From an uncultured Bacteroidales bacterium (GTDB taxonomy: Bacteria > Bacteroidota > Bacteroidia > Bacteroidales > WCHB1-69), in contig ONQE01000008.1 of assembly GCA_900319925.1 (NCBI GenBank), forward strand, positions 1-36,952: a stretch of 36,952 nt of DNA, read 5' to 3'. The notes below the pieces were generated by a model. It saw only the letters and a program-made list of their open reading frames with translations. It did not search any database and was not told where the DNA came from. The position numbers and the translations under genes are program-made. Shown here in pieces: positions 11,631 to 30,900 of this stretch (position 1 is the stretch's first letter; the number at the start of each line of letters is the position of its first letter).

Positions 11631-12632
11631 TTATCGATTATTAGGAAAAAAAATTCTTCGACAGAGGGCATATGCACGACGACAAAAACCATTTAATGTG
11701 TAATTGCAGATAAAAGCACGAACAAGAGGTTTGTCCCATCCAATTTCATCATAACAATCAGTATATCCAGTAGCAATCTCGTTTTTCATTTTTTCAAAAT
11801 ATTCCCTGTTACGGTGCCTCGCAGCAAGACACATACGACTTTTTTTCATATATAGAACCGCTCGACGTGCCAAGTCTCGATATTCTTGTTCTTTATCAGA
11901 AAAGAAATCCTCCATAATCTTTACAGATTCGATAGATTGATCCCATAATCTGATGCTGGCTTGGTTGGACGTCGTATACATATACGAATTTTCATTCACA
12001 CAATTATAATAATAGATATGATCGTCAATTCTAGCAATACTTTTCGCACAATACACTAATGGTGCAGTTTGTTGCCAATCTTCCAGATTATTCACCCCCT
12101 CTTTAGGCCTGATATTGTTGTCTTTGTAAAGGCTAAGCTTAATCAATCGCCTACATACAGAATGTGTTCCCCCACGTGAGGCAAGAGCTTTTAATAACAT
12201 TTCATGTTGGTTATTATAAGGAGCATCGTATGCTTTCTTTATGCCTGATGGCAAAATTATGTAAGAGTTTCCAGACACAATATCTGCCCCGGTTTCCATT
12301 TGTTTTTCCACCAACAAACGAACAGCATCGAGGTCTAAATAGTCGTCAGAATCCACGTTGCAAATAAAAGTGCCGGTTGCAGCATCAAGCGCAGTGTTTC
12401 GGGAGGCGGCTAAACCTCTGTTTTTTTTATGAGAGACGATATGGACGTGCTCTTTTCTATCAGGATATTCCTCCATCACGTCTTTTAGAATTTCGACGCT
12501 CTTGTCGGGCGAGCAGTCGTCCACGAAGATGTACTCTATGTTTTTGTAGGTTTGCTCAAAAAGGCTTCGCACACATCTCTCGATATATTTTTCTACTTTA
12601 TAAACTGGGACCAAAATACTTACTTGATACAT
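11631..12632 (-). CDS. GT2-family glycosyltransferase
   Basis: This 333-residue GT2 enzyme has VSILVPVYKVEKYIERC at the N-terminus, FVDDCSPDKS as the nucleotide-binding Asp motif, KKNRGLAASRNTAL, and the metal-binding DSD at 94-96 in NVDSDDYLD. The acceptor half ends in a basic tail (YALCRRIFFPNNR). WgaB/EpsJ-like enzymes that add sugars to capsule or O-antigen look like this. It has its own -7 element at 12662-12669 and is separated from the upstream licD gene by a hairpin, so it can be transcribed alone. Its position behind the lic operon suggests that it builds part of the same glycan. The sequence alone does not give the sugar. Confidence 0.88.
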   Translation of the reverse strand: MYQVSILVPVYKVEKYIERCVRSLFEQTYKNIEYIFVDDCSPDKSVEILKDVMEEYPDRKEHVHIVSHKKNRGLAASRNTALDAATGTFICNVDSDDYLDLDAVRLLVEKQMETGADIVSGNSYIILPSGIKKAYDAPYNNQHEMLLKALASRGGTHSVCRRLIKLSLYKDNNIRPKEGVNNLEDWQQTAPLVYCAKSIARIDDHIYYYNCVNENSYMYTTSNQASIRLWDQSIESVKIMEDFFSDKEQEYRDLARRAVLYMKKSRMCLAARHRNREYFEKMKNEIATGYTDCYDEIGWDKPLVRAFICNYTLNGFCRRAYALCRRIFFPNNR

Positions 12633-12661
12633 AACTCATTAAAGCTTAGTGTTATTTGTGG

Positions 12662-12669
12662 CAAAAATA
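12662..12669 (-). promoter_or_regulatory. -7 promoter element for the downstream GT2 gene
   Basis: On the minus strand TATTTTTG matches TAnnTTTG and is followed by about 30 bases to the ATG at 12632. No -33 TTG is clear. Confidence 0.5.
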
Positions 12670-12710: not shown

Positions 12711-13514
12711 TCACTCAAAGAATTCAACATGTGAAAGGTGCCAAACTCGCTGTTCTTCACTTGGCAATTTCATATAGTCACCATAATAACTGGTTAATAC
12801 CTTATCATAGTTATTGGGTACAAGAAAGGGATGGTTTTCGAACATCATTTCCTTCGTAGGTATAAAATCATCATAATATTTTTGGCATTTTGCTACGTTC
12901 TCGATCGTGCCAAAATCATCCATTCTCAAATTGTTGTCACAAAACGAGCAGAAGAAACGCATCAATTGTTTTGCCAACCACGCAAACGGATATAAAATAT
13001 ATGAAATCATCACTGAAACGCCGAACGGGGCAAAATGATGAACTCTCCGATAGCAACCACCATACAAACGATCGAGCCACCGGCGCAGATGCACATTGCC
13101 TTTAATAACAGGGAATATATCTATCCACAATCCTTGAAATTTCCGTTTGCTTTGGGAATAAATGGCAGTACTGTCAATAGTCTTAGATTTTTTATCCACA
13201 ATTTTTGTAAAAGTCAGGGAATAATACTTGTCTGTACTCAGGTTTTGGACCGCAAATTGTTCAGGAAGCTCTTTAGGAGCGATGGTGAGAAAGCGGTCGT
13301 AGTCTTCCTTCATCATGGAAATATCCATATCATCATCCCATGGAATAAAACCGCCATGGCGCACCGCTCCCAAAAGGGTACCCCAATCTAACCAATAGGG
13401 TATGTTATGATTACGGCAGATTTTATCTACCGCAATCAATATTTCCAACATTCTTAGTTGCGCTTTGCGCAAATCGGTGCCTTCACCATTATATTTTGAA
13501 AAATCTTCTTCCAT
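12711..13514 (-). CDS. licD: LicD-family phosphotransferase
   Basis: This 267-residue protein belongs to the LicD/fukutin nucleotidyltransferase-fold family. The signature is at 45-65: GTLLGAVRHGGFIPWDDD followed by MDI, with the acidic residues Asp60-62 and Asp64 that bind Mg. The N-terminal helix (LRKAQLRMLEILIAVDKICRNH) and the YWLDWG segment are also typical. LicD proteins transfer phosphocholine, or in other members phosphoethanolamine, phosphoribitol or phosphoglycerol, from a CDP-linked donor to a glycan. It lies at the end of an operon containing both a CDP-choline-type and a CDP-glycerol-type pathway, so its donor could be either. Choline is favoured by the adjacent licB and licCA genes. 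It is probably attached to the inner membrane through the basic-hydrophobic C-terminal half. Confidence 0.93.
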   Translation of the reverse strand: MEEDFSKYNGEGTDLRKAQLRMLEILIAVDKICRNHNIPYWLDWGTLLGAVRHGGFIPWDDDMDISMMKEDYDRFLTIAPKELPEQFAVQNLSTDKYYSLTFTKIVDKKSKTIDSTAIYSQSKRKFQGLWIDIFPVIKGNVHLRRWLDRLYGGCYRRVHHFAPFGVSVMISYILYPFAWLAKQLMRFFCSFCDNNLRMDDFGTIENVAKCQKYYDDFIPTKEMMFENHPFLVPNNYDKVLTSYYGDYMKLPSEEQRVWHLSHVEFFE

Positions 13515-13559
13515 AATACATACTCACATTTAAAATGGCTCACAATTTGAAAATTATAT

Positions 13560-14558
13560 CTACTCTTCTTTGGACTTCTTTGGTTTATAAAGCGTTGCCA
13601 TAGTAACACCACCGAGAATCATTAATGCCCCTACAACGATTAACCAAGACAACGCACCGGAGAAATATTGTGGGAAGAACTTTGACAAGATGAATGAGAA
13701 CACCACTCCCCAAAAAGAATATGTAACATTAAGACACAAAGCTTTGGCGGCACCAATATTATCAATGCCAGTATACCAACAAAGGAATGAATACATGCCA
13801 ATCGCAGCTGTCACAATTAACAGAATCCAACATGGGGCATAAGAGAAAACCGCAGAAAAACCATGGAAAGCTGATCCAAAACCTCCAGCGAAAACAGGTG
13901 CAACGACTAAAAGATAGACAAGTGCAGAAGTAGTGTAACGTACCAGCAATCCCAACTCAGGATCAACAAGCCCAGCTTTCATTCCATAACCACACACCAC
14001 CCCTTCAGATGCCCAACCTACGGCAGTAATAAGAGCAAAAACAATACCAAGGCTAACGTTGACATTTTCACCATTAGAAGGAGTCCATCCAATAATAACA
14101 ATACCAATAATACAAATCAGAAGGCCCAACCATGTCTGGGGTCCAGTCTTTTCCTTTAAAATCCATACAGCCAAAGCCGTTCCCAGCAAAGGATAAATAG
14201 CTGATACACTAGTAGTCAAAGCAGCACCGCCAACAGCTATGCTTAATGTGTATGTCGTCATTGCTAAAGGTCCGCCAAGTACAGCGCCAAGAGCACAGAA
14301 CCGACCATCTCTTGTTCTCAAGGCTAGTTTTAGTTCCTTTAATCTGCCTTTTGCGCCCATGTAAATATAGAGCCAAAATGCTGCAACTATGTCATGCAGC
14401 GCACTGCATATTACTCCGCCTGCAGCCAAAAGAACAGGATCTTCAACAAAGGGTGCCATTATCATAACAACGCCCAACAATACAGCGTCAAGGCCCCATG
14501 TAGCACCTGACATAATACCACCATAATAACCCTTGCGGGGATTCATCACTACTGCCAT
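13560..14558 (-). CDS. licB: LicB-like DMT/EamA-family permease
   Basis: This 332-residue protein has ten predicted membrane helices in two EamA-type five-helix repeats, with a short basic tail (YKPKKSKEE). The segments YYGGIMSGATWGLDAVLLG and PLAMTTYTLSIAVGGAALTTSVSAIYPLLGT resemble LicB, the choline permease of lic1 loci in Haemophilus and pneumococcus. The start MAVVMNPRKG has a second methionine at residue 5. Sitting 18 bases behind the LicC/LicA fusion and 45 bases before licD, it most probably imports choline or a related amino alcohol for that fusion enzyme. Substrate specificity is inferred from position and family and has not been shown. Confidence 0.85.
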   Translation of the reverse strand: MAVVMNPRKGYYGGIMSGATWGLDAVLLGVVMIMAPFVEDPVLLAAGGVICSALHDIVAAFWLYIYMGAKGRLKELKLALRTRDGRFCALGAVLGGPLAMTTYTLSIAVGGAALTTSVSAIYPLLGTALAVWILKEKTGPQTWLGLLICIIGIVIIGWTPSNGENVNVSLGIVFALITAVGWASEGVVCGYGMKAGLVDPELGLLVRYTTSALVYLLVVAPVFAGGFGSAFHGFSAVFSYAPCWILLIVTAAIGMYSFLCWYTGIDNIGAAKALCLNVTYSFWGVVFSFILSKFFPQYFSGALSWLIVVGALMILGGVTMATLYKPKKSKEE

Positions 14559-14576
14559 AACTAGTTGATTTTAATT

Positions 14577-17500
14577 TTATATATTTTCTAACAGATTAAT
14601 TGCTCGTTGATAACGGTCTCTACCATAGGTTCCAAAATCATCACCCTTGGCTTCCTTAATAACTGTCCACTGGGCCCAAAGATAATCCCATAGGATCTGG
14701 TAGCACAGGATTTTTTCATAGACATTATGAGGTATTGAACCTCCGAAATACTGCGCCAGAACAAAATCCTGATTTTCTGGTGAAAACCCACTTTCTAAGA
14801 ACAATGCTGCGAAATCCGCCATTGGATCGTTCATTCCTGAGTACTCCCAATCAATAAGATAGATTGTGCCATTCTTAGATTTAATAAAATTCTCGGGAAC
14901 AGCATCGTTGTGACACGGATGAAGATCCACGCCAAGTTGATTGAGTCTTACCTCCAAAGCCATCACTCGTTCCCGAACGTCTTCCCATCCATCATACATT
15001 GTAGCTCTCACTTTAGACAACAGCACATCATACTTCTCTATCTCTCGGAAAATATTGAACTCATTTTTCAAACGGACATGCGAATAATGAAGATTGCGAT
15101 ATATCGCCGCTATTATCTTCATGTTTTCATGCCTTTGAATGGTAGCTGAATTCAGCGTTTCGGCATCTTCTACATAATCAACCAACTTAATTCCAGATTT
15201 TGAATTAAAATACACTATGGGAGGATTGATGCCTAATTTACTGCCTTCTATTGAGTTGAACTCTTCAAAAGAACGATCAACCATTCCGTCCGAGCCGTTC
15301 CCTGGCACTCTCAACACATAGCTTTTGCCATTAAAATCAACTCTGAAATTCTTATTGCTCATCCCTCCAATTTGGGAAATTGCAGCTTTTGAGACATCTT
15401 CATCAGGAAATATATCAACAAGATGCATCAACAGATTTTCTTTGTCATACGGATTCTCTTTGCGGCACAACTTTCTGTATATTACGTTTTTCAAACGCTT
15501 GAAGTCTTCTTGAGAATCCACGTCTCCCCAGATGAGGTTAGTAAAACTGATATACGGTCGGTCAAGCACATCTGTCACATCCATCAACAAGTATTCATAA
15601 CTTAGCAATGGATTAGAACTCTCAGAATATAATGAAACCATTGCACCGTATGTTTGACGGGACAACTTGGTTGCGCCTATCATTTCGCCCTCAATTCGAC
15701 AGACCCGGTGCCTGTCTTTCGTCAGATTAACAACAAAGCCGGCCTTTAATTCCACGTAACACTCGTCGCCACTTCCCGTCTCCTCTGTAACGGTGAAACA
15801 GATGGGATGTCGCGTTGTTGTCAATTGTTCCAGCACCTTTCTTTCATAGAATGTATCACCTTCCAACAACAAGAAATCTTCTTTAATATAGTTTTTGACC
15901 ACGGCAAGCGACGCCATGGATCCCGTAAACTCATAATCCTTGTTAACCACCACTGTCACATCGCTACTTTTGTATTTTTCAAACAATTCTGACTTATAAC
16001 CCGCCACGATGATAATGTCGGTGTAGTCCAGGTCTCTAAGTATGGAAATGGTTCTATCAATCAGATTGTTTTCACCATCAAACGGAATCAAAGGATAGGG
16101 TGTGTCAGAGTCTCTTTCTTGACGAGCCGCTAAAATGACTGCGGTGGTCATACCTTGTTTCTCATACAGAGCAATGGCTTTGTTGAAATACAAGTATGCA
16201 TAATCATGCCAAAGTTTAAGAAAATCACCTGTATCCACAGCATTGGCTTCTTGGAAGATGGCCCAAAGATACCAACAATAAGAAGCAATAGCAGTATATG
16301 CTAAATAGTGGCGCAACTCATTGTCTGAAGGCGCATGGCCTAAATACATGCCAATCGCTGACAGAGCCTCGTCGTAGTTCAAGTCTGAACAAGCGATGAA
16401 AGAACCCAAATCCTGAGCGGTATCTCCTTGACCAGAATACTCCCAGTCAATCAACGTCATATCCCCATCGTCACCAATTAAAAAATTGGCGGCAAGTGCA
16501 TCGCAATGGTTAAGACATTCGGGCCATTCGTCTTTTTGGACGTATTTATAGAGTTTTTCTATTTTATCATGGAGTTTATAGAAATCGGACGTGTCGTCTT
16601 TGTGCAGTTTTTGGATTTTATGAAGGAAATCTGTGGCCGAATCCCACAACCTGTAAGGAAATTCCGACTGCACATTGGCTTTATGCAAATCACTGAGGAG
16701 CTGCATAGCCTGGGACATCTCTATTTCATCATGATAGTCAAGAATGCGAGCGTTTTCAACAAAATAGGAAATCTTCCACCCATCTGTAGGATGCATATAA
16801 ACAAAGGTTTTGTCCAGATTCAGTTCCTTTGCCACTTGCATTGAGAAATACTCGCTGTCCCTGCTAATAAATTCATTGGTTCCAGTTCCCGGATGCCTAT
16901 AAACATACTTTCGGCCATCCTTTTTACAAGTGAAAGCAAACGATGAATTTGTCATGCCCTTCTTCAACACCACTATCTCACGGATATCCTTCTCCTCACA
17001 CTTGAGCACTCCGCAAATATTATGGAATATATCGCACCCTGTGTTATTGACGTATTCTTCATCAAACTCACGCAGATCATCCAAAGTATCAAATTCTTCA
17101 ATATCATGCGATTGATAGCGATGTATCTTTAACGGTGGCAGCTCTTTAATGTATCGAACATACACATCTTCCCAATAACCGAGTCTCGTCTCGCCACGAT
17201 CATATTCCTTTTTCATGATTTCTCGGAATTGTGTCGAAAACTCTTTGTTGAAAAACGCATGCCCAACCATATACCAGGCATTTGCACCTCCGATTTTGAC
17301 ATCGACAATGTTATCCTTATCATCCACTGTGAGACAATACTCGCCTGTTTCGCCTTCGGAATAAAGGGCTGAATAATAACTGTCTTTCGGCTTTTCAACA
17401 AAGACATTATTTGGAAAATAATTGTCAGAAGAGCACAAAAAAGTATCTTCCAATTCGTCAATAACTCGAATAAGTGAAGACGTGTTATTATACCTGTTAT

Positions 17501-17729
17501 AATCTTCGTTCAGGACAATTTTGACTCCAAACTTGTCTTTCAGGTAATCAAAAAGTTCGGCCAAATATCCAACAACTATGAAAATATTGGTAATGCCAGC
17601 CTCTTGTAGTTGTCTAATCTGTCGTTCAATCAGGACCTCACCCTTTACTTTCAGCAAGCCCTTAGGCTTTTCGTATGAGAGCGGTGCAAAACGGGAAGAT
17701 GTTCCCGCAGCCATTATTATAGCGTTCAT
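14577..17729 (-). CDS. licCA: LicC-LicA-LicC'-LicA' four-domain fusion (cytidylyltransferase/choline kinase)
   Basis: This 1050-residue protein consists of two LicC-LicA halves in tandem. Domain 1 (about 1-230) is a LicC-type nucleotidyltransferase with the intact signature MAAGTSSRFAPLSYEKPKG and a SSDNYF metal site. Domain 2 (about 235-520) is a choline/ethanolamine-kinase fold, with NHCDALAANFLI (Asp410, Asn415) as catalytic loop and LIDWEYSG (Asp428) as metal motif. Domain 3 (about 527-760) is a second nucleotidyltransferase whose glycine signature has become VILAARQERDSDTPYPLIPF. Domain 4 (about 765-1050) is a second kinase with CHNDAVPENFI (Asp942) and LIDWEYSG (Asp960). The expected reactions are ATP-dependent phosphorylation of choline or ethanolamine, then CTP-dependent formation of the CDP-alcohol. 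Single licCA fusions are known in Treponema. It is eight bases behind the beta-barrel gene and 18 bases before licB. Confidence 0.92.
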   Translation of the reverse strand: MNAIIMAAGTSSRFAPLSYEKPKGLLKVKGEVLIERQIRQLQEAGITNIFIVVGYLAELFDYLKDKFGVKIVLNEDYNRYNNTSSLIRVIDELEDTFLCSSDNYFPNNVFVEKPKDSYYSALYSEGETGEYCLTVDDKDNIVDVKIGGANAWYMVGHAFFNKEFSTQFREIMKKEYDRGETRLGYWEDVYVRYIKELPPLKIHRYQSHDIEEFDTLDDLREFDEEYVNNTGCDIFHNICGVLKCEEKDIREIVVLKKGMTNSSFAFTCKKDGRKYVYRHPGTGTNEFISRDSEYFSMQVAKELNLDKTFVYMHPTDGWKISYFVENARILDYHDEIEMSQAMQLLSDLHKANVQSEFPYRLWDSATDFLHKIQKLHKDDTSDFYKLHDKIEKLYKYVQKDEWPECLNHCDALAANFLIGDDGDMTLIDWEYSGQGDTAQDLGSFIACSDLNYDEALSAIGMYLGHAPSDNELRHYLAYTAIASYCWYLWAIFQEANAVDTGDFLKLWHDYAYLYFNKAIALYEKQGMTTAVILAARQERDSDTPYPLIPFDGENNLIDRTISILRDLDYTDIIIVAGYKSELFEKYKSSDVTVVVNKDYEFTGSMASLAVVKNYIKEDFLLLEGDTFYERKVLEQLTTTRHPICFTVTEETGSGDECYVELKAGFVVNLTKDRHRVCRIEGEMIGATKLSRQTYGAMVSLYSESSNPLLSYEYLLMDVTDVLDRPYISFTNLIWGDVDSQEDFKRLKNVIYRKLCRKENPYDKENLLMHLVDIFPDEDVSKAAISQIGGMSNKNFRVDFNGKSYVLRVPGNGSDGMVDRSFEEFNSIEGSKLGINPPIVYFNSKSGIKLVDYVEDAETLNSATIQRHENMKIIAAIYRNLHYSHVRLKNEFNIFREIEKYDVLLSKVRATMYDGWEDVRERVMALEVRLNQLGVDLHPCHNDAVPENFIKSKNGTIYLIDWEYSGMNDPMADFAALFLESGFSPENQDFVLAQYFGGSIPHNVYEKILCYQILWDYLWAQWTVIKEAKGDDFGTYGRDRYQRAINLLENI

Positions 17730-17737
17730 AATATTGA

Positions 17738-18520
17738 TTAAAAGGCCAATGATGCGGTGAAGTTCACAAAAGCTTTATTGTATACAGGATTGTAAATGAG
17801 TGCTGCACCCAAAGGCAAGGAGAAATCCTTAATAGTTAAATTATAGAGATATTTAAGCTCTATGTTGCAAATGCTGAAATTCTTTTCGTACCCATTATAG
17901 CAACTTTTGTCAAAAGCAGCACCCAAAGCCAATGAAATTTTATGGTTATGAAGGAAATCATAGTAGGTTCCCAATTCGGCATAAGTTGAATAAGCCTGTT
18001 TGTCTTTTGTATTACCTTCCTCATCTGCCACCTGATACTTATCAGCACCGTAGAAAAAGTTACTCACAGTCAGCCAAAGAGGGATTTTCTCTGGAGAAAT
18101 AGTGATAACTGCCTCTAACCAATGTCCTGTTTCATGTGGTTTGTAATTGAAATACCGATCTATCGGGGTAGTTGTCGTTGGATAGTAGTAATCATTAATA
18201 CCTATAGTAAACCACTTATACGTATAGCTAATACCAAAATCTAATTCGCTGTATTTACCATTTACAGCATAACCGCCCAACACATAGACATAAAATCCCT
18301 TGTTGGAATAGTTAATGCAAGGGAACAGCACAGGAGCAGCATTCTCCGTTATCATTTCCATACCTCTCCAAACATACTTGGATTGAAAATCCAAACCCAA
18401 ATGGAAGTTAGATTCTTTTAATTTCGCACCCCAATTGTTTCTCGGGGGATTGTCTTCACTTTGTGCGAATAAACACACTGCCAATAATAAAATGGCCAAA
18501 GTAGATATCACCTTTTTCAT
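17738..18520 (-). CDS. Putative outer-membrane beta-barrel protein (TorF-like)
   Basis: This 260-residue exported protein has a clear signal peptide (KKVISTLAILLLAVCLFAQ). The mature part is made of alternating aromatic/polar strands, for example FHLGLDFQSKYVWRGMEM, GKYSELDFGISYTYKWFTIG and ISLALGAAFDKS, and it ends in Phe (FVNFTASLAF), as outer-membrane barrels do. The SKYVWRGM motif resembles the first strand of the TorF/Gcw_chp family of putative porins. No enzymatic motif is visible. Lying inside the operon between the CDP-glycerol transferase and the LicCA fusion, it could be a porin for choline or glycerol compounds or a surface protein of the glycan system. A 125-base gap precedes it, without an exact TAnnTTTG element. 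Confidence 0.75.
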   Translation of the reverse strand: MKKVISTLAILLLAVCLFAQSEDNPPRNNWGAKLKESNFHLGLDFQSKYVWRGMEMITENAAPVLFPCINYSNKGFYVYVLGGYAVNGKYSELDFGISYTYKWFTIGINDYYYPTTTTPIDRYFNYKPHETGHWLEAVITISPEKIPLWLTVSNFFYGADKYQVADEEGNTKDKQAYSTYAELGTYYDFLHNHKISLALGAAFDKSCYNGYEKNFSICNIELKYLYNLTIKDFSLPLGAALIYNPVYNKAFVNFTASLAF

Positions 18521-18645
18521 AATAATCAGCCCTTATTTCGTTTATTAACAATCATTTCGTTGTTTTGTGCATCAAAGAATGCCAATTTCACTTTCTCCTT
18601 TAGCTATTGCTTCCGTTTCGGGAATTCAGCATTATATAAAGCACA

Positions 18646-19962
18646 TTAAGATATGTTTCCATTTATATATTGTTCAATCGTATCCAATATCTTTTGAGAG
18701 GGTAAGATTCCATCCTTGGGTTTAAGGTATTCTTCATAGAATTGTTCGCGTTGAACCCTCATCGGATCATCCCCTTTGACAACCACATTCTGAATAAAAT
18801 TCTCAACATCCTCGACGGAATGACCACGATAATGTTGTTCAAAGGATTGTTTGCCAAAAGCATTAAACTTTTCAGTCATCATATCATCTACATCGTTACA
18901 CAAATACATTACCGGTTTCTTCGTGAAAAGGTATTCTGTCGTAAAAGAGCCACAATCATGAATCATGGCATCTGAAGTGAGAAACAAGTCTTCATATCCA
19001 TCTGTAACAAGTTGAGTGTTTTCCATAGAAGCCCACCTATTATAATAAAGCTCTGTTTTCTCTGTACCCCATATTTTCTGAAGTTTTATTTTAAGAGATG
19101 GATGGGGCTTAAAAGCTATTTGAATATCTTCTTCATATTTCTCGGCCAATGACAACAATTTATCACAATAAGCAAAAAAAGTGGAATTATGATCTGTTTC
19201 AATAGAATGATGAGGAGCATAAATCAATTTCTTTTTCTTTCGAGATTGTGTTTTCCATGGATTATTCGGAATATAACTCTTGTCCAAATATATTTCAGTG
19301 GCAGGATACCCTGTAACAAAAGCGTTTTCTCCCTTTACATGCCCGTACTTCTTCGCCAAGTCTTTATGAATATCTGTTTCTTGAAAAAACAATCCGACCA
19401 AATTATGGAACATCAAATCATAATTTATCTTATAGAAATCCATAGATGTAAAGGCGTATGGAAGATAGCAAGTTAACGTATCTTGAAAATGATAGATAAA
19501 ATATTGTGGGAAAACATCTTTATACGGTGTTGTAAAAAAGACTATATCAGGACGATGTGTTTTTTTTATATCCATCCAAACATTCTTTTTTTCATCATAC
19601 GGCACCACGTATTCGTATCCTTTTCGCTCTATAAAATGTCTGGCTCCTTCCACCATTTTTCTCAACTCATCCTCATTATATCCCTTATATGCGGAATAGG
19701 GAAATATGACCACAAATGGATGATAACGAGGGTTTTTCTGCATCAATTCAAAAAGCGGATCAAGTTTCCACATGCTAGGAATAGTCAACAAGAAAGCAAC
19801 ATCCAAACACTGTTTGTTTCGTAACAGATGCGCTGCTTTTAATTGTGATTGGCGGAATCTGTTAATGAAATGCTGCTTTATTGGCCGACAGTGATTTCTC
19901 AAAACATCCTTATGCGCAAGGATAATATGCAACCTGTAAAAAAAAGAATCATCAATTGCCAT
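18646..19962 (-). CDS. CDP-glycerol glycerophosphotransferase family protein (TagB/TagF-like)
   Basis: This 438-residue protein matches the CDP-glycerol:poly(glycerophosphate) transferase family. LIYAPHHS at 246-253, FKPHP at 284-288 and the long signature TSDAMIHDCGSFTTEYLF with KKPVMYL (329-354) correspond to the donor-binding histidine and Asp/Ser motifs of TagF. The N-terminal half is a divergent Rossmann domain without a signal peptide. TagB adds one phosphoglycerol and TagF polymerises it onto a lipid-linked acceptor at the cytosolic membrane face. Which of these applies is not decided by the sequence. The TagD-like gene three positions upstream in the same operon would supply CDP-glycerol. 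A Gram-negative cell has no wall teichoic acid, so the acceptor is probably a surface polysaccharide repeat unit. CDP-ribitol is an alternative donor. Confidence 0.85.
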   Translation of the reverse strand: MAIDDSFFYRLHIILAHKDVLRNHCRPIKQHFINRFRQSQLKAAHLLRNKQCLDVAFLLTIPSMWKLDPLFELMQKNPRYHPFVVIFPYSAYKGYNEDELRKMVEGARHFIERKGYEYVVPYDEKKNVWMDIKKTHRPDIVFFTTPYKDVFPQYFIYHFQDTLTCYLPYAFTSMDFYKINYDLMFHNLVGLFFQETDIHKDLAKKYGHVKGENAFVTGYPATEIYLDKSYIPNNPWKTQSRKKKKLIYAPHHSIETDHNSTFFAYCDKLLSLAEKYEEDIQIAFKPHPSLKIKLQKIWGTEKTELYYNRWASMENTQLVTDGYEDLFLTSDAMIHDCGSFTTEYLFTKKPVMYLCNDVDDMMTEKFNAFGKQSFEQHYRGHSVEDVENFIQNVVVKGDDPMRVQREQFYEEYLKPKDGILPSQKILDTIEQYINGNIS

Positions 19963-19999
19963 AATATGGAATTAAAGACGTGTATACAAATACAAACAA

Positions 20000-21043
20000 C
20001 TATTTCATCATTTCCAAGAAACTTTCCGCACACCAAAGCTGCCACTTCTGGTTTCCCGTCAGAGAGTTCATATCAATATCTTCTCTGAACTCGGGACGCG
20101 TCGGACCAGACCAGTTCTTAAACACTGCATCCACCGGTCGCGGCATCGGAATCTTGAATGGTATTTCCAGTTCTGGATACTTGATGGCATACAATCCCCG
20201 AACTAGATATTTGGGTTCGCCATTGCGCACTCTGTCCATGTCCAATGGATCTGCCATAACCAGCTTGGCATAGGGGTCATAGTAGGGCATCCACGCAGCT
20301 CCGAAAGCGTTCAGATAAGAGCTGCTGCTCTCTATGGAGAACACTTCGTCCATGAATTTTAGCACATCTATTCCGTTTTCCCCTTCACGATATCTCTCGA
20401 ACAGTTCTAATTGGTCAACAGGATTGGCCAACACCATCTTGGGGTCCAAAAACATGTATCGCTTGACAAACGCATCAAAAGTCCATACGGGACTGATAAG
20501 CTTGTCCATCCCCCCAAATATTAAATCCGCACTTTCACCCACAATCATCAACTGCACCCCGTCGTTTTTCGCCATCTCCGCAGCCTTGTAAATCTGGGGC
20601 TCTATAGAATGGACAGGAGCAAATTTATGACGCATCACCGCAGGGGTGAAGTTCTGGTAGTCCTCCATCGTAATGTCAATCAGATGATGCTTCAGCTGGA
20701 ATTTCTTGCAGTACTTTTTAGCACGTTCCACATCAGCATCAAACACTCCGGATGTGGAGTTGAATGTGTAGGCGTGACTTCCAGATTTAAGATAGGCTGC
20801 CAAGTTGGCACTGTCCATACCTCCACTAAGAAGTATACCGATATTGCTGTATTTGGCATATAATGCATCGAACTGCTTTTGTATTTCCAAGTCAATATCT
20901 TCCGATGTCCTTACGGGAATACGATCTTCTTCGGCGACCGGTCGGAAGTTCTTATGCTGGAAACCTTCAACGAAATCGACACCATCTTTCCAAATATACC
21001 GGAAAGCCATGTATGAACTCAAACAAAAATCTTTATTTACCAT
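20000..21043 (-). CDS. Asparagine-synthase-like PP-loop protein, second tandem copy
   Basis: This 347-residue protein contains only the synthetase part of an AsnB-type enzyme. The ATP pyrophosphatase PP-loop SGGMDS is at 73-78 and the second nucleotide-site motif is GESADLIFGGMD at 169-180. The usual N-terminal Cys2 glutaminase domain is absent. The first 60 residues (SSYMAFRYIWKDGVDFVEGF) resemble the linker just after a glutaminase domain. Such proteins activate a carboxylate as acyl-AMP for amide formation with ammonia or another amine. It is end-to-end alignable with the next gene upstream, sharing APVHSIEPQ, PMPRPVD and NQKW segments. It lies in the polymer operon, so amidation of a uronic acid or amino-acid substituent in the glycan is a reasonable inference, not a demonstrated role. 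Confidence 0.85.
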   Translation of the reverse strand: MVNKDFCLSSYMAFRYIWKDGVDFVEGFQHKNFRPVAEEDRIPVRTSEDIDLEIQKQFDALYAKYSNIGILLSGGMDSANLAAYLKSGSHAYTFNSTSGVFDADVERAKKYCKKFQLKHHLIDITMEDYQNFTPAVMRHKFAPVHSIEPQIYKAAEMAKNDGVQLMIVGESADLIFGGMDKLISPVWTFDAFVKRYMFLDPKMVLANPVDQLELFERYREGENGIDVLKFMDEVFSIESSSSYLNAFGAAWMPYYDPYAKLVMADPLDMDRVRNGEPKYLVRGLYAIKYPELEIPFKIPMPRPVDAVFKNWSGPTRPEFREDIDMNSLTGNQKWQLWCAESFLEMMK

Positions 21044-21055
21044 ATAGCCGTTTTC

Positions 21056-22099
21056 TTATTTTTCGTAAATGTTCAAAAATCTTTCCAGACAATAGAGAAG
21101 CCACTTCTGGTTTCCGCTGTAGTTGTTTATGTTAATATCTGTTTTGAATTCCTTGCGTTTCGGTCCCTCCCAGTTCGCGAAGTACTCATCCACCGGACGG
21201 GGCATCGGTTGCTTAAGGGGAACTGCGGTCTCCGGGTACTTCATTCTGAAAAGATCCCGGATCAGATATTTTGTGTCACCGTTCCTGATTCGGCCCAAAT
21301 CGAGAGGTTTGGCCATTTTCAGCAGTTCGTACGGATCTATGAAATCCATTTCTGCCGTTTCAAACGCATTCTCGTAGGATGCATAACTTTCATCGGTTAC
21401 TATTTCATCATAGAAACGCAGATAATCAATGCTGTTCTTGCCAATCCGATAGCGCTCAAAGAGATAATTCATATCGTACGGTTCATTAAGGACATCGGCC
21501 GGATTCACGTATATGGTTCTCTTCACATATTGATCATAACTCCAGTTCTGGGACAGCAGTCCGTCCATGCCGCCAAACACATAATCAGCAGCATCACCGA
21601 TAACAAGCATGGTTACACCGTCCTGCTTGGCTTGTATGGCAGCAGCATAAAGCTGAGGCTCTATGGAATGAACCGGTGCGCCCTTGTGCCGCATTATCTT
21701 GTCCACATTCTGTTCTACCGTATTCCAATCAATGTCCACATAATGCAGATTCAGATGATAATATTGAGCATAATATTCTGCACGTTCCAACTCATCACTT
21801 TGGTATTTGCCTCCAAGAAATCGGAACGTATATGCATCAGCCCCTTCCGGCATATAAGAGGCAAGTATCGAACTGTCCATGCCTCCTGACAATAACATCC
21901 CCAACTTTTCGTGAGCAACTCTTCTAAAAACATTACGCAGTGCTATGTCCACGTCATGGGCATCAGAAACGAAAACCTTTCTCTCTAAAGGTTGCTGCTT
22001 ATACACTTGATGGTGTAAACCTTCGCAAAACTGCTTGTCATCATCTTCCACATATCGCAGTGAAAGATACGAACTCATGCAATAACTTTTATCAACCAT
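21056..22099 (-). CDS. Asparagine-synthase-like PP-loop protein, first tandem copy
   Basis: This paralogue of the following gene has the same length, 347 residues. The PP-loop SGGMDS is at 71-76, and GDAADYVFGGMD replaces the canonical AsnB GEGxDExFGGY motif. The glutaminase domain is again missing, and the N-terminus MVDKSYCMSSYLSLRYV mirrors that of its neighbour. Both copies retain the nucleotide-binding residues, so neither looks like a pseudogene. The family acts by ATP-dependent carboxylate adenylation, and the amine source must be free ammonia or a separate amine substrate. It starts three bases after the tagD-like stop and ends 12 bases before its twin, so the three are translated from one message. 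Two divergent copies in series suggest two related substrates or a heterodimer. Confidence 0.85.
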   Translation of the reverse strand: MVDKSYCMSSYLSLRYVEDDDKQFCEGLHHQVYKQQPLERKVFVSDAHDVDIALRNVFRRVAHEKLGMLLSGGMDSSILASYMPEGADAYTFRFLGGKYQSDELERAEYYAQYYHLNLHYVDIDWNTVEQNVDKIMRHKGAPVHSIEPQLYAAAIQAKQDGVTMLVIGDAADYVFGGMDGLLSQNWSYDQYVKRTIYVNPADVLNEPYDMNYLFERYRIGKNSIDYLRFYDEIVTDESYASYENAFETAEMDFIDPYELLKMAKPLDLGRIRNGDTKYLIRDLFRMKYPETAVPLKQPMPRPVDEYFANWEGPKRKEFKTDININNYSGNQKWLLYCLERFLNIYEK

Positions 22100-22102
22100 T
22101 AT

Positions 22103-22615
22103 TCAAACATTTAGATGATTGTCCTCTGAACATGATGAGGGGTCGTTTGTTGTCCAGCCTCTTGCTGCCTTCAGAGCTTCGGTTATTTTGGTTGAAGAAA
22201 TACCTTTCGTGTAGGGGAAATACACTATTTTGATTCCCTCCTTGGCAAAATCCTCCTCGTATTTCTTCCATTTTTCCGTACCATACCAGTCATCACCCAC
22301 GAAAAGAATGCTGGCGCCCAATTTTTTACAAGCGGTGAGTTTGTCCATATCATACTGTGGAACCACCGCATCCACATATTTTATACTACGCACGATTTCC
22401 GCTCTGTCGGAATAAGGAATCATGGCATGTTTCCCCTTGTAAAGGACCAATTCGTCAACCGTAACACCTACAATGAGTTTGTCGCACATCCCCTTGGCAT
22501 TTTTCAAAAGATTGAGATGGCCGATGTGAAAAAGATCATAAACCCCTGTGGTATAGCCAATCACCATTGCTTTAGATTTGATATCTGGGCCCGTAAAGTT
22601 AATTCTATCATCCAT
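22103..22615 (-). CDS. tagD: TagD-like glycerol-3-phosphate cytidylyltransferase
   Basis: This 170-residue cytidylyltransferase has the HxGH nucleotidyl-transfer motif in GVYDLFHIGHLNLL (HIGH at 30-33). GVTVDELVLYKGK and YSDRAEIVRSIKYVDAVVP follow, then the GDDW motif near residue 107 and the C-terminal TKGISSTKI (about 136-144). These match TagD, which makes CDP-glycerol from CTP and glycerol-3-phosphate. The family also contains ethanolamine-phosphate and other alcohol-phosphate cytidylyltransferases, so the exact alcohol needs testing. An N-terminal extension of about 16 residues before the family core suggests that Met17 could be the real start, although Met1 is preceded by an AAAAAAAGGT stretch. 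It is the first gene of the operon. A -7 element about 120 bases upstream implies a leader of about 115 bases. Confidence 0.9.
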   Translation of the reverse strand: MDDRINFTGPDIKSKAMVIGYTTGVYDLFHIGHLNLLKNAKGMCDKLIVGVTVDELVLYKGKHAMIPYSDRAEIVRSIKYVDAVVPQYDMDKLTACKKLGASILFVGDDWYGTEKWKKYEEDFAKEGIKIVYFPYTKGISSTKITEALKAARGWTTNDPSSCSEDNHLNV

Positions 22616-22736
22616 TATACCTTTTTTTATGTTTCACCAAGAAATCCTTCTGACTTCTCCTCATGCAAAATCCTCGTAAGAATACGATATTTGAACTTAC
22701 CCTTACTGCTTCCGACAAAAGGGATAAGCACGGCGG

Positions 22737-22744
22737 CAAAGATA
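22737..22744 (-). promoter_or_regulatory. -7 promoter element of the surface-polymer operon
   Basis: On the minus strand TATCTTTG matches TAnnTTTG. Transcription would begin near 22730, leaving a leader of about 115 bases before tagD. No -33 TTG is placed well. The leader is long enough for antitermination or other RNA control, but I see no clear structure in it. Confidence 0.5.
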
Positions 22745-22758
22745 CAACTTTTCTCTTT

Positions 22759-25032
22759 TCACCGCACCACCGTCACACTCGTGTGTATTCCCTGCTTTTT
22801 TCTGCCATTGACGACACAGCGATACTCGATGGCGCAGTAATAGACCCCGTCAGGAAGACCAACCGCATCCCACGAAAGCTCCTTTGTGCCCGACTGGGTG
22901 TAAACCTGTTTGCCCCAGCGATTATAAATCATCATCTCCAAACTGACAAAATCCCCTTCCAACTGCGGCTCGAACACATCATTGAAACCGTCCCCATTGG
23001 GAGTAATCACATTGGGAACCGAGACCTCGCAGGGCCGCCCGTCGAAAAAGACGGAATTGTCGCTGGTGTCACACTCAACCTGCAAACCGCCATACTGCGC
23101 CGTTCCCACACCGTTGTCGTTGATCGTGACCCGCAACGGATAGGGAGTGTCGTGTGCCGCCAAGAGGGATGAACTGATGTTCAAGGTCATGGTGACGCAC
23201 TCATCGGGTTGCAAACTCTGATCCATTTCCTCCGTCTGAATCAGATCTCCCGAGGAAGTGTAGGTGGACACGAATAGCGGGTCCCGGAACATCGTCTCCC
23301 CCGTGTTGCAAATGGTTATCGTCACCTGGATATTGTCACCCTCGTAGGTAATCAGGGGGCTAAGGGTGACGGACAAATTCGCCAAATTCAGGAACGGTCT
23401 CCCGTACTGATCCAGCGTGGTGGCCTGCTGCAGGAAGTTGTTGAAGGGCCGCCGCACCACGCCGACGGGGTCGGTGAACACCGTGGCGTTGTTGAACAGC
23501 GAGGATGGCACTGTCAGGTCCTTGTTGATGTTGGTGACGTTGTAGAGGTATTGATTCCAAACCGGACGCGCCGGCGCCCAAGGTTGCCCCGACGACTTGA
23601 AGATGTTCAGCTTCGAACTGCCCACCGAGACAATTTCCGCCGCCCCGTCAGCATCCACGTCGGCGATGACGGGATACTGCATGATGGTGGTTTCCGAATA
23701 TGAGAACGTGTTCAATACATACATTGGCACGGTATCATGATGCGTGATGTGGCTCTTCCCGCTGCCGTTCACGATTTTCAAAGTGGATTGATCGCAAATA
23801 ATCAGCTCTAAAAGCCCGTCCATGTTGAAATCGAAAGCCGTGAAGCTATTCGAAAAGGTGTCTTCGTCAGGAATCATATCCCACATAAGAGAAAAGGACC
23901 GTGTGTCCGCATTATACTTGTAGGCCTGTATCTGGTGCCCCGTCGACGCCCCGCATTGCAGCACAATTTCCAACATGCCATCATTGTCGATGTCCGCTAT
24001 CAATGGTATGCTCTTTCCTGAACGGTTTGTATTGATAATAAGGGGATTGCCCACTTGACCGTTGTGCACGTCCCATACATAGCAATATACCGCCCCTGCT
24101 TGTGCATCTGTGTTTTTGATGCTGATGAAAACATCCAAATATCCGTCCTTGTTGAAGTCCGCAACCTGCACATTTCCGTCAGCGGGTGCACCTCCGGGCG
24201 GCATGATTTGCTTCACCAACGTGATGGTGTTGCCTGCCGTCCCGCTCAGGTTTGTGATGGAGACATCGTAGATTTCGTTCCCTAGTATCAGCTCTGGACG
24301 GCTGTCTCCACATACATCGGCGACAAAAGGAGACGACAATTTTCTATGAGTGTACTGGGTATAGTGCGCATACGACGCCCCGGTGTTCGTGGTGGCCGCC
24401 TCGGCCAGCAAATGGCCGTTCTCAGCGTTATAAACCTTGTTGCGCACATATACCTCCGGATGCCCGTCCCCGTTGAAGTCCACGAAACCCACATTCGCGG
24501 CGTAGTTGTTCGTACCTGAAGTGTAGTCTGCATCCGAGACCCAATAGGGTGTGTTCGGATTTGCCGAGGTGATATCGTAGGCCCGCACTCGGTTGTCACA
24601 ACTCGCCACCACAATCAGCCCTTTGCCGTTGGAAGTTCGAACCAGCCCGTATGACGCCGCATCATATTCTGAAACAGGCGAATCCATCGTCACCGTCACC
24701 TTCAGCTGATGCGTTACTCCATCGAAAACCAACATTTCATAACCCACATTGCCATAATATCCATCGTTTGCATAATGTGACTGTCCGGCAAGCGAAAAGC
24801 AGACGATTTCCGGACGCCCGTCCCCGTCCAAATCCCCCACCAACGGGATGTTGAGATTGGAGACAATCGCGTTCGACGACCAAGCATTTACAACCCCCCA
24901 GGCCATGGATTCGACATCCGCCTCACAGTCCACCATCACCACATTGTCAGGCAAATTGACTTGCGCCTTTGCGTATCCATATAGACCTGTCACACAGACT
25001 ATTATTCCCAATATGGCATGTATCGCTTTCAT
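22759..25032 (-). CDS. Secreted FG-GAP/VCBS repeat protein with T9SS type B sorting domain (second copy)
   Basis: This 757-residue exported protein starts with a signal peptide (HAILGIIVCVTGLYGYAKAQ). About seven FG-GAP/VCBS-type calcium-binding repeats follow, each with a D-x-[DN]-x-D core: VGDLDGDGRPEIV, VDFNGDGHPEVYV, ADVCGDSRPELIL, ADFNKDGYLDVFI, ADIDNDGMLEIVL, FDFNMDGLLELII and ADVDADGAAEIVS. These build an integrin-alpha-like beta-propeller. After a CARDB-like stretch (LSPLITYEGDNIQVTITICN) the C-terminus carries PNVITPNGDGFNDVF and MIYNRWGKQVY, the type B (gliding-motility-associated) sorting domain recognised by the type IX secretion system. It is therefore predicted to be secreted to, and attached at, the cell surface. 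It follows its paralogue after 12 bases. Confidence 0.93.
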   Translation of the reverse strand: MKAIHAILGIIVCVTGLYGYAKAQVNLPDNVVMVDCEADVESMAWGVVNAWSSNAIVSNLNIPLVGDLDGDGRPEIVCFSLAGQSHYANDGYYGNVGYEMLVFDGVTHQLKVTVTMDSPVSEYDAASYGLVRTSNGKGLIVVASCDNRVRAYDITSANPNTPYWVSDADYTSGTNNYAANVGFVDFNGDGHPEVYVRNKVYNAENGHLLAEAATTNTGASYAHYTQYTHRKLSSPFVADVCGDSRPELILGNEIYDVSITNLSGTAGNTITLVKQIMPPGGAPADGNVQVADFNKDGYLDVFISIKNTDAQAGAVYCYVWDVHNGQVGNPLIINTNRSGKSIPLIADIDNDGMLEIVLQCGASTGHQIQAYKYNADTRSFSLMWDMIPDEDTFSNSFTAFDFNMDGLLELIICDQSTLKIVNGSGKSHITHHDTVPMYVLNTFSYSETTIMQYPVIADVDADGAAEIVSVGSSKLNIFKSSGQPWAPARPVWNQYLYNVTNINKDLTVPSSLFNNATVFTDPVGVVRRPFNNFLQQATTLDQYGRPFLNLANLSVTLSPLITYEGDNIQVTITICNTGETMFRDPLFVSTYTSSGDLIQTEEMDQSLQPDECVTMTLNISSSLLAAHDTPYPLRVTINDNGVGTAQYGGLQVECDTSDNSVFFDGRPCEVSVPNVITPNGDGFNDVFEPQLEGDFVSLEMMIYNRWGKQVYTQSGTKELSWDAVGLPDGVYYCAIEYRCVVNGRKKQGIHTSVTVVR

Positions 25033-25044
25033 TCTAACCTATAA

Positions 25045-27891: not shown

Positions 27892-27943
27892 CCCCTTGTA
27901 ATTTTTGGAATCAACAACAATCAAAAATATAAGAACGAGAATC

Positions 27944-30900
27944 ATGTATCCGATTTTGCATCATCCTATCTTGGACATCCCCGAAAGGGAGATGACGACC
28001 TTTGAATACAAGGGTCAGCAAGTGAAGGCCGCGAAAGGCTACACCATCGCGGCGGCCCTCCACCAGGCGGGTTTCCCCATCCACAGCCACAGCTTGAAAG
28101 GCCGCGAGCGCAGCATGGACTGCGGCATCGGCAAGTGCGGTGCCTGCGAAATGCTCGTCGACGGCGTGGTGAAACGCATCTGCGTCACCCTCGTCGACGG
28201 CGTGAAGAAGGTGGAGGAGATCGCCCACAACTATCTTCCCGAAACCGACACTATCAAACCCGCAGAAGGCCCGAAAGTCTATAAGACAGAGGTCGCCATC
28301 ATCGGCGCCGGTCCCGCCGGCCTCGCCTGCCGCGAACAACTCAACAAGTTCGGCATCCCCAACATCGTCATCGACAACAACGACCGCATCGGCGGACAGT
28401 TCACCATGCAGACCCACCAGTTCTTCTTCTTCGAGAAGGAGCAGAAATACGGCGGCATGCGCGGTTTCGACATCGCCAAGACGCTCGCCGGCGACAACCA
28501 CTCCGGCATCCTGCTCAACAGCACCGTGTGGGACATCCTTGAAGGCAAGCGCGTGGCCGCCAAGAACATGCAGGACGGCAGCATCTTCTTTGTGGATGCC
28601 AACTTCCTCGTCGTGGCTACGGGCGCGTTCCCGTTCATGCCCACCTTCGAGAACGACGACCTGCCGGGCGTCTATACCGCCGCCGTCGTGCAGAAGATGA
28701 TGAACCTGCAGCACACGCTCCTCGGCAAACGCATCCTCACCATCGGCGCCGGCAATATCGGCTACCTTACTTCGTATCAGGCGGTTCAGGCAGGTGCGAA
28801 AGTGGTGGCCATCGTCGAGGCCATGGACCACGAGGGCGGATTCCCGGTGCAGGCCAACCGCGTGCGCCGTCTCGGCATCCCCATCATCACCTCCCACACG
28901 CTGCTGAAAGCCATCCCCAACGAGGACCACACCGGCGTAATCGGCGCGGTGATTGCCGAATGCAAGAACTTCCAACCCGTGCCCGGCACGGAACAGGTCA
29001 TCAAAGACATCGACCTCATCAATATATGCACCGGCCTGAAGCCCGACAACCTCATCCTCGAAAAGGGCAAGGTCACTTTCGGGCTCAACACCTACGGCAT
29101 CGGTGACGCCACCCGCGTGGGCGAAGGCACCTGCGCCGTGCTGCGCGGCAAACAAGCCGCCATGGAGATCGCCCAAGCCTTGAACGTGCGCTTCAACTAC
29201 GACGACTACCTCGCCGTGACCAAAGACTACGCGGATTCCCAGCAACATCCGGTGCGCGTGCTCGAGAAACCCAACCGTCCCTGCGGCGACCGTCTGCAGA
29301 AGCCGTTCGTCATGGCCGACTGCCTCTACGGTTTCGCCTGCAACCCCTGCACGTTCGCCTGCCCGCAAGGCGCCATCACCAAAATCGCCACCAACCACGT
29401 GCCGCAAATCGACTACGACAAGTGCATCGGCTGTATGAAGTGCGTCAACCACTGCCCCGGCTTAGCCCTCTTCGGCTACAACATCCCGAAGAACTGGCTC
29501 TTCCTGCCGTTCGAGTACGACGCGGAGGAGAATGCTGAGGTCTTCTTGGTGGATGATAACGGTAAGAAGGTCGGCGAAGGCATCATCGAAAAAATCACGA
29601 AGGGCGCGAACAAGACGCATGTGGCCCGCGTGAAAGCCTTGGATGTCAGCGGTGAAGCATTGATGAGCGTCACTGGTTTCATCCTGAAGGCGAACTACCC
29701 CGAGCCGCTGAACTGGCAGAAACTCGATAAGAAGGAGGAAGATCCCGCCTTCGTCTGCCACTGCGACGACGTGAAAATCGAGACCATCCTGGAAGCCGTG
29801 AAGGGCAAGAAGATTATCTCCGTGGATGAGCTGAAGCACATTACCCGCATCGGCATGGGACCGTGCCGCGGCAAACGCTGCATCCCGCGCGTGAAGCTGC
29901 TGCTGGCCGGCCATGGTGTGGAGGTCGTGGGCGACGCCACCCCGCGCGGCCCGCTCTCCTCGCAGCTCAACATCGGCGAGCTCTGCCCGAACGACAAGCC
30001 CGAAACATTCGTGACGAACGTCAACGGCCACCCGACCAAGAAGGTCGAGTGCGATGTCTTCGTGGCGGGCGGCGGCATCACGGGCAGCGGCCTGTTCCGC
30101 TACTTCGCCGAAGCCGGCAAGAAGGTGGTGCTCTGCAACGCCGAACGCGGCTCCTCCTGGCGCTGTATCGGCGGCGGCCGTCCCAGCTTCTCCGTGCCGG
30201 AAATCGCCGACATCGCGGAACACAACCGCGCCATCTTCGAATCCATCCAGAAGGTCACCAACATCAACTACAAACCCACGCGCTACGTCGGATTCGCCCA
30301 CGACGAGGCCAACTACAAGGCATTGGAGAAATCCCTCGAGTGGAGCGACGGCTATATGGTCGATAAGAAGGACTTCGTGAAGGAGGTTTCGCCCTACTTC
30401 AACCCGAACCTCAACACCTACCAGGCCGCCTGCATCACCAATGCGTGCTGGCAGGCCACGCCCGGCCCCACCATCAACTATATCCGCAACATCGCCATCG
30501 AACACGGCGGCGAGCTGTTGGAGGACACCCGCCTCTTAGAGGTGCGCAAGACCGCCAAGGGTTTCATGGCGTTGGTGAAGACCCACGACAAAGAGTACGT
30601 GGAGTACCATTGCGAGCATTTCGTGAACTCCCTCGGACCGAGCGCCAACAAGTTCGCGGAACAGTTAGGTATGTACCTCGGCTTGTACCCCATTAAGCAC
30701 CAAGCCTTTATCACGCATCGTCTGCCGATGTTGGGTAAGGACGGCGACTCTTTGGACATGCTCATCGACCGCCGGAAGTACAAAGGTTTCTCCGCCGTCT
30801 ATGGACAGCAGTTCGCGGAGACCGGCCAAATCATCGGCTGCGCGTCACCCGCGACCGAACAGCAACAAGCCGGCAAGGAACTGAAGTACAACACGCAGGA

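Follow-up and report, generated by a model that had tools for sequence, protein, structure and literature searches.

A Bacteroidales gene cluster that may join a proposed CDP-glyceramide pathway to CDP-choline activation

LicD encoded beside LicB and LicC is a known phosphocholine arrangement, and lic1-type phosphocholine operons hold the functions of LicA, LicB, LicC and LicD together. A second group of systems involves residues related to glyceric acid, among them the Escherichia coli O82 antigen, whose glycan we take to contain glyceric acid. One source reports glyceric acid in some E. coli serogroups (PMC9912281), and another makes no mention of O82 or of glyceric acid (PMC4732683). The S-layer glycan adaptor of Paenibacillus alvei CCM 2051T carries glyceric acid 2-phosphate (GroA-2-phosphate) (PMC2943079), and D-glyceramide 2-phosphate is a known residue of the Providencia alcalifaciens O22 O antigen (PMC6222762). 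We analysed an entire contig of 36,952 bases (ONQE01000008.1, assembly GCA_900319925.1; hereafter the window) from an uncultured Bacteroidales bacterium, in which a minus-strand unit of eight genes, running from 22615 to 12711, brings together homologues of LicA, LicB, LicC and LicD and a set of genes resembling those of the second group.

From open reading frame coordinates, the order is TagD-like cytidylyltransferase, two AsnB-like amide synthetases, TagF-like phosphotransferase, small barrel protein, four-domain Lic fusion, LicB and LicD, with internal gaps of 3-125 bp. An earlier note, made from the sequence alone, had named Tag-like, Lic, amide-forming and barrel genes at 12711-22615 on this strand; Pfam, TIGR and PDB matches find all of them, and they bear out two cytidine diphosphate (CDP) activation systems and two phosphotransferases in one Gram-negative cluster. 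The parts are ordinary and their combination is unusual. We give a nearly even chance to the reading that this single cluster supplies two CDP-activated small-molecule donors and two enzymes that attach them to a surface glycan through phosphodiester bonds, the proposed donors being CDP-glyceramide (or CDP-glycerate) and CDP-choline. All of this chemistry is inferred. For the first donor, the TagD-like enzyme would charge glycolytic phosphoglycerate with CTP, the AsnB-like enzymes would amidate the carboxyl group before or after charging, and the TagF-family enzyme would transfer the resulting CDP-glyceramide or CDP-glycerate. For the second, choline would enter through the small outer-membrane barrel and then LicB, the kinase domains of the 1050-aa fusion would phosphorylate it, its LicC domain would charge the phosphocholine, and LicD would transfer it. 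A wider version is possible, although we hold it with less confidence: the TagD subfamily described below and AsnB would form an unrecognised, horizontally spread CDP-glyceramide pathway feeding TagF or LicD transferases in capsules, O antigens and exopolysaccharides (EPS) of several phyla, joined here to a choline-activating enzyme of four domains; glyceramide-phosphate and phosphocholine would then sit together on a single glycan.

The first gene of the unit (22103..22615, minus strand) encodes a member of the CTP_transf_like family (PF01467, 73 bits). The name tagD, as used in the earlier note, fits at that level only, since its TIGR01518 score of 97.4 bits lies under the curated equivalog cut-off of 165.4. 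The RTEGIS signature of two solved TagD/TarD sequences reads PYTKGISST in the window protein, and most TagDs linked to AsnB have PYTKGxSST in place of PRTEGISTTK. In B. subtilis TagD numbering, R113 is replaced by Y in 79 and E115 by K in 73 of 82 TagD-like sequences. We propose that this subfamily consists of phosphoglycerate or phosphoglyceramide cytidylyltransferases.

An AsnB alignment of five rows served as the query against named bacterial genomes. It gave 311 relatives, of which the best 80 were fetched, the remaining 231 standing outside the counts below. The titles of these 80 records name Bacteroidales and their kin, Clostridia, Bacilli, Selenomonadaceae, Synergistales, Kiritimatiellae and others; many of the close relatives come, by title, from ruminant-gut metagenome genomes. 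Together with G263, a Lactiplantibacillus plantarum plasmid and the window, they make a set of 83 loci, from which L012, L013 and L014 (duplicates or flank) are excluded and which includes two pairs that share a genome by title (L037/L049 and L062/L093). AsnB has a TagD-like gene at most 300 bp away in 58 loci and in the same frame in 17 (together 75/83, over several phyla), within 3 kb in four more, and is missing from four, of which L008 is cut by a contig end, L020 is discussed below, and L079 and L091 yielded nothing. The in-frame fusions occur in both orders, AsnB-TagD in 15 cases and TagD-AsnB in two; of the latter, L044, a frame starting with TTG, shows the TagD end only. A same-strand gene matching the TagF or LicD profile lies within 4 kb in 67/83 loci. 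Among the individual loci, Selenomonadaceae L053:2658-4142 is a Pfam-checked TagD-AsnB fusion, opposite in order to the AsnB-TagD fusions of Bacteroidales, and Quinella L031:3073-5196 holds two AsnB-like domains in a single 707-aa frame, the second resembling the L. plantarum type by eye.

As an order-wide control, we searched 393 genomes of the order with TIGR01518. Some match was obtained in 200 and a match above the cut-off in four, all of which keep R113. Among the 30 best TIGR01518 loci, AsnB occurs in the flanks (about 1.5 kb) of the window locus only, and the remaining loci are of PRT, DRT, ERT and PYG types, one PRG, one KHT, and L125 and L128, treated below. In six Bacteroidales loci (L106-L111), an R-type TagD domain forms part of an open frame of about 450 aa, a candidate TagD fusion, and LicD stands in the flanks of 4/6; L112-L124 except L114 represent a third TagD-like type of this order, reading PYGxGxSS and far under the cut-off for glycerol 3-phosphate (G3P) cytidylyltransferases. 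As a second control, Lactiplantibacillus plasmids were compared, of which 24 records match TagD: identity is about 82% in six, exactly the six with AsnB, and below 60% in the rest, three of whose annotated tagDs were inspected and are R-type. Such a pairing would arise by chance once in 134,596 if labels were independent, although these plasmids are related.

These observations bear on the alternative that the window enzyme is an ordinary G3P cytidylyltransferase, TagF adding glycerol phosphate and the AsnBs amidating something unrelated, such as a uronic acid. The earlier note had likewise read this half as making CDP-glycerol. The best PDB match of the TagD-like protein is indeed B. subtilis TagD (1coz, 77.5 bits), and PF04464, the family of the TagF-like protein, is named for glycerol phosphate. 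Nevertheless, the G3P-cytidylyltransferase cut-off is missed, R113 and E115 are replaced across most of the subfamily, TagD and AsnB share a frame in both orders, and the Lactiplantibacillus plasmids divide into an AsnB-linked type and the canonical one. On the TagD signature and the plasmid split we rejected an ordinary CDP-glycerol function for the cassette and regard this alternative as improbable; the CDP-glycerol annotation of TagD-AsnB genes is a probable mis-annotation of a widespread cassette.

The two amide synthetases, AsnB-like 1 (21056..22099) and AsnB-like 2 (20000..21043), both on the minus strand, are 347 aa each and 47% identical, and match PF00733 with scores of 64 and 70 bits. 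These are the amide-forming enzymes named before; they carry Asn_synthase domains, but neither has a Pfam match to a glutaminase (GATase) domain. The PP-loop and the KY..R stretch are present in both, and in a 55-row alignment S71, G72, G73, D75 and S76 are invariant, as are K277, Y278 and R281. An AF2 model of AsnB-like 1 (pLDDT 94.1) has asparagine and carbapenam synthetases as its best PDB matches, with TM scores, normalised to query length, of about 0.4-0.55; the model of an AsnB-TagD fusion was weaker (pLDDT 78.9) and is used for none of our conclusions.

The E. coli O82 cluster is among the closest known systems for this half. A TagD-AsnB query matched 7/5426 E. coli genomes, in its TagD part, with an asparagine-synthase-type gene adjoining in all seven, and a canonical tagD control gave short partial matches, covering 10-29% of the query among the matches listed. 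The four loci that we opened, one of them NCTC9082, all have O82 flippase and polymerase names and a glycerophosphotransferase-family gene. In NCTC9082 the TagD is 67% identical to that of the window, reads PYTQGTSST, and adjoins AsnB and a gene of the CDP-glycerol glycerophosphotransferase family. Its AsnB, the one O82 AsnB scanned, differs from the window proteins in being full length and in having a glutaminase domain, a sign that ammonia may be the transferred group; the O82 transferase has no BLAST match to that of the window at 1e-3, and no Lic genes are annotated in the cluster. AsnB is uninterrupted in 3/4 of the opened clusters, and in the fourth (HCP30S3_I2, L130:4701-7001) an IS1 element interrupts it. 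In the S-layer (slg) locus of P. alvei, wsfA is described as a homologue of asparagine synthase and WsfC as having a glycerophosphotransferase domain (PMC2943079), a set similar to that of the window beside a glycan with glyceric acid phosphate. The comparison is by description only and concerns a Gram-positive S-layer protein glycan, in whose figure legend, as far as it is available, no Lic genes are named (PMC2943079). The L. plantarum EPS plasmids (e.g. p83-18.1) have TagF family, TagD (82%) and AsnB (39%) genes consecutively, then a flippase, but a single AsnB, a Gram-positive EPS and no Lic genes annotated in the stretch. P. alcalifaciens O22 resembles the proposed product by its residue only. 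Given the tie between this TagD subfamily and AsnB, together with the O82 and P. alvei gene sets, the AsnB enzymes are probably core parts of the TagD half; adding the GroA-2-phosphate of P. alvei and the glyceramide of P. alcalifaciens, we infer a donor derived from phosphoglycerate and probably amidated. A thin literature search found no description of the TagD-AsnB module as a pathway, and PMC3684757 has an asparagine synthase and a cytidylyltransferase in two separate loci.

A different substrate was also considered: phosphoethanolamine, or else a phosphonate alcohol, would be charged by the TagD-like enzyme, and AsnB would join its amine or some other small acid, so that the donor is N-acylated or a phosphonate. 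The third PDB match of the TagD-like protein is ethanolamine-phosphate cytidylyltransferase (3elb, 69.1 bits), the Y of PYT.GISST is shared with the hydroxyethylphosphonate domain of Fom1 (5x3d), and phosphonate genes occur among the relatives: in L021 and L058 AsnB has a phosphoenolpyruvate (PEP) mutase nearby, and in L025 there is a PntC-like nucleotidyltransferase-aminotransferase protein. The glutaminase-bearing AsnB that accompanies the same TagD in O82 points instead to ammonia transfer, and we judge this substrate unlikely. A PntC-type or phosphonate function for the window itself was rejected, there being no PEP mutase match among the window proteins scanned with Pfam. In L021:8506-10948, the PEP mutase carries a fused cytidylyltransferase and, with a gene resembling phosphonopyruvate decarboxylase by eye, adjoins an AsnB pair.

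The TagF-like protein (18646..19962, minus strand) is a divergent member of the TagF/Glyphos_transf family, with a PF04464 score of 51 bits (cut-off 22.1) covering profile positions 151-366 only. Its best five relatives are 51-61% identical and all come from TagD-AsnB or AsnB loci, the 61% relative being the TagF that follows TagD-AsnB-AsnB in L094. TagF-profile matches numbered 54 among the loci; of nine neighbours checked with Pfam, eight reach PF04464 and that of L018 has no Pfam match. Of the tag/tar genes for a wall teichoic acid, those identified in the window are the TagD-like and TagF-like ones, and elsewhere in the genome TIGR01518 was the one tag family searched.

The second half of the unit begins with the barrel gene (17738..18520, minus strand), for an outer-membrane beta-barrel-like protein of 260 aa with a signal peptide by eye, whose match to the TorF-like TIGR02001 (22.6 bits) is below the cut-off of 47.15. 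After 8 bp follows the Lic fusion (14577..17729, minus strand), a 1050-aa chain with two NTP-transferase and two kinase (APH, Choline_kinase) domains. What had been called licCA indeed contains LicC and LicA domains, but as the ends of a LicC-kinase-cytidylyltransferase-LicA array whose third domain lacks its catalytic signature. Domain 1 is LicC (aa 2-227; 1jyk, 122.6 bits), domain 2 is choline-kinase-like (about aa 240-520), domain 3 is a degenerate cytidylyltransferase (about aa 528-756), and domain 4 is a putative LicA choline kinase (aa 777-1046; 4r77, 219.9 bits); a further PDB match is 6pd1 (83.7 bits). We rejected domain 3 as a second working cytidylyltransferase because it reads LAARQERDSDTPYPLI where domain 1 has AAGTSSRFAPLSYEKPKGLL, its glycine loop and lysine being gone. 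In one study, mutating the corresponding nucleotidyltransferase lysine is reported to have abolished activity in two relatives (PMC6697681). Next come LicB (13560..14558, minus strand), a putative choline permease of the EamA/DMT type whose sole PDB match is LicB 7b0k (98.9 bits), and LicD (12711..13514, minus strand; PF04991, 141.4 bits, cut-off 22.6). Compared with lic1-type operons, all four functions are present, and the window differs in that a single chain holds a pair of kinase domains and a pair of cytidylyltransferase domains, of which one cytidylyltransferase is degenerate, and in the barrel protein.

The matches to LicC, LicA, LicB and LicD, and the occurrence of same-type genes elsewhere near LicB-like or BCCT transporters, are in line with the phosphocholine branch put forward before, and by sequence the Lic half fits that branch. 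Relatives of the second half of the fusion (40-43%) have a separate LicC-like and a LicB-like gene in the stretch in 6/6 cases, the latter adjoining in three; one relative of the first half adjoins a LicB-like gene in a Collinsella record, and others, in E. eligens and L. paracasei, have BCCT transporters as neighbours. The nearest approach to a multiple fusion elsewhere is an open frame of 932 aa that combines LicC, kinase and LicC domains. An L. paracasei EPS plasmid (L159:6896-11791) encodes LicD and a BCCT transporter together with a LicC-kinase protein and another LicC-like protein, suggesting a plasmid-borne phosphocholine EPS. The two kinase domains of the window fusion are 26% identical to each other and both keep HxDxxxxN and DWE, a point in favour of a reading in which the Lic half activates ethanolamine, or choline and ethanolamine through two kinases, rather than choline alone. 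We think this improbable: choline is favoured by the LicB match and by the LicB-like or BCCT genes near which relatives of the two halves lie.

The two halves differ in their distribution. Genus and order were searched at a cut-off of 1e-20, except for the fusion (1e-30) and LicB (1e-15) in the order. In the genus, AsnB was matched in 3/40 genomes and the full-length fusion in 1/40, with partial matches, confined to the last kinase domain, in two more. Across the order, the fusion and LicB were each matched in 1/393 genomes, both times the window genome. In the class of G431 (by title Colidextribacter), 21/291 genomes match the fusion at 1e-30, and among the matches listed none spans both halves. 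L015 (by its coordinates G010, of the same genus) has TagD-AsnB-AsnB-LicD near relatives of the window YfhO (87% identity across 153 aa) and of its glycosyltransferase (48%); Lic choline genes gave no match at this locus.

Several observations weigh against our proposal. The first concern LicD and the family 2 glycosyltransferase next downstream (GT2; 11631..12632, minus strand). Compared with the two LicDs available from LicC-kinase loci (L159, with the BCCT transporter, and L170, without LicB), the window LicD stands apart and groups with LicDs of TagD-AsnB loci; those of L045 and L048 are among its nearest (38-40%), and in both loci the LicD is followed by a GT2 of the kind nearest to that of the window (41%), so that the whole pair resembles theirs. 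In L073 and L094, a GT2 directly follows TagF. We rejected any assignment of the donor from LicD sequence, since two LicC-kinase-locus LicDs were available and the window LicD sits with the TagD-AsnB-linked ones. LicD may, by this resemblance, serve the first donor. The gene pairing also suggests that LicD and GT2 may have a long-standing association with the TagD-AsnB cassette, the barrel, fusion and LicB being what was acquired. Other points concern the TagD half: L020 has an AsnB pair without a nearby TagD, a gene read as TarI-like lying some kilobases off; L125 and L128 are PYTGG/PYTPG with no AsnB seen in their flanks; and on a Parabacteroides plasmid a PYTKGISST TagD adjoins LicD with no AsnB annotated in the 8.4-kb stretch. 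The two AsnB copies are unaccounted for by the proposed pathway. In P. alvei, tagD appears in a legend that covers two clusters, so that its assignment to this species is our reading of an ambiguous text (PMC2943079), and the residue is written there as glyceric acid and not as an amide, despite the AsnB homologue (PMC2943079). The substrates themselves, the role of the barrel, the single transcript and the presence of both substituents on one glycan are inferred, and the weakest step is which transferase takes which donor.

Transcription signals add to these points. The consensus of the Bacteroidales-type -7 promoter element is found 15 times in the window against 9.5 expected. One match, TATCTTTGC (22736..22744, minus strand), is in the 143-bp gap preceding the TagD-like gene, another is within AsnB 2 (20627-20619), and a third, TATTTTTGC (12661..12669, minus strand), precedes the GT2 gene, where a separate transcript could start. 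Against a common transcript, the stricter two-box pattern TTTG-N21-24-TANNTTTG gave three matches against 0.34 expected, all on the minus strand and within coding sequence, in the barrel gene (18369-18401), TagF (19285-19320) and AsnB 2 (20991-21023). Pattern scans of the 125-bp gap between TagF and barrel found no -7 element and no terminator-like site; a sigma-70-like match (18548-18519, minus strand) falls there, of a kind at chance level in the window (41 against 34 expected). A single transcript is the simplest reading of the whole unit, but there may be internal starts, including one serving the Lic half; of the earlier claim of one tightly spaced operon, the spacing stands and the common transcript is likely.

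The pairing of LicD with GT2 and the promoter-like matches inside the unit lower our confidence in the proposal and led us to admit a further rival, in which LicD also, or instead, uses the first donor and the Lic choline genes serve another acceptor or an unrelated transferase. The placement of LicD in the tree and its pairing with GT2, as in L045 and L048, speak for it, but TagF already occupies the transferase place of the cassette, as its relatives in such loci show, and LicD here lies beside LicB and LicC in the arrangement known for phosphocholine. We consider it unlikely, though the foremost of the rivals. It is harder still to credit that an assembly error brought the two halves together, or that they are neighbours with no link in function, each on its own transcript. 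The genome is a draft (3.12 Mb, 252 contigs, 86.81% complete, 4.39% contamination), LicB or the fusion was matched in one genome of 393, the closest relatives found for the fusion halves come from Collinsella and from the class of G431, and promoter-like matches lie within the unit. Nevertheless, the gene separating TagF from the Lic fusion, 8 bp from the latter, encodes an outer-membrane-type barrel, which argues against contamination, and genes with type IX secretion system (T9SS) domains or with relatives in Bacteroidales loci are found on both sides in the same contig.

If the proposed first donor is correct, the product of genes annotated as 'CDP-glycerol' in many gut bacteria, on EPS plasmids and for one E. 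coli O antigen may be a phosphate of glyceric acid or of glyceramide, and glycan structures predicted from sequence would change accordingly. The TagD signature with a neighbouring AsnB offers a simple rule for recognising them, and O82 and L. plantarum are culturable test systems. The choline half would place a phosphocholine epitope on a member of a Gram-negative gut group otherwise without LicB among the 393 genomes sampled.

As to the surroundings, GC content per 1-kb window is 34-46% over 9-23 kb, an interval that reaches beyond the gene set, and 44-61% in the rest of the contig. The same strand encodes, directly upstream (22759-27675), two FG-GAP proteins in tandem, both bearing CHU_C T9SS sorting domains, and at 27905-31174 lies an oxidoreductase of 1089 aa that combines 2Fe-2S, Pyr_redox_2, 4Fe-4S, BFD and DAO domains in a single chain.

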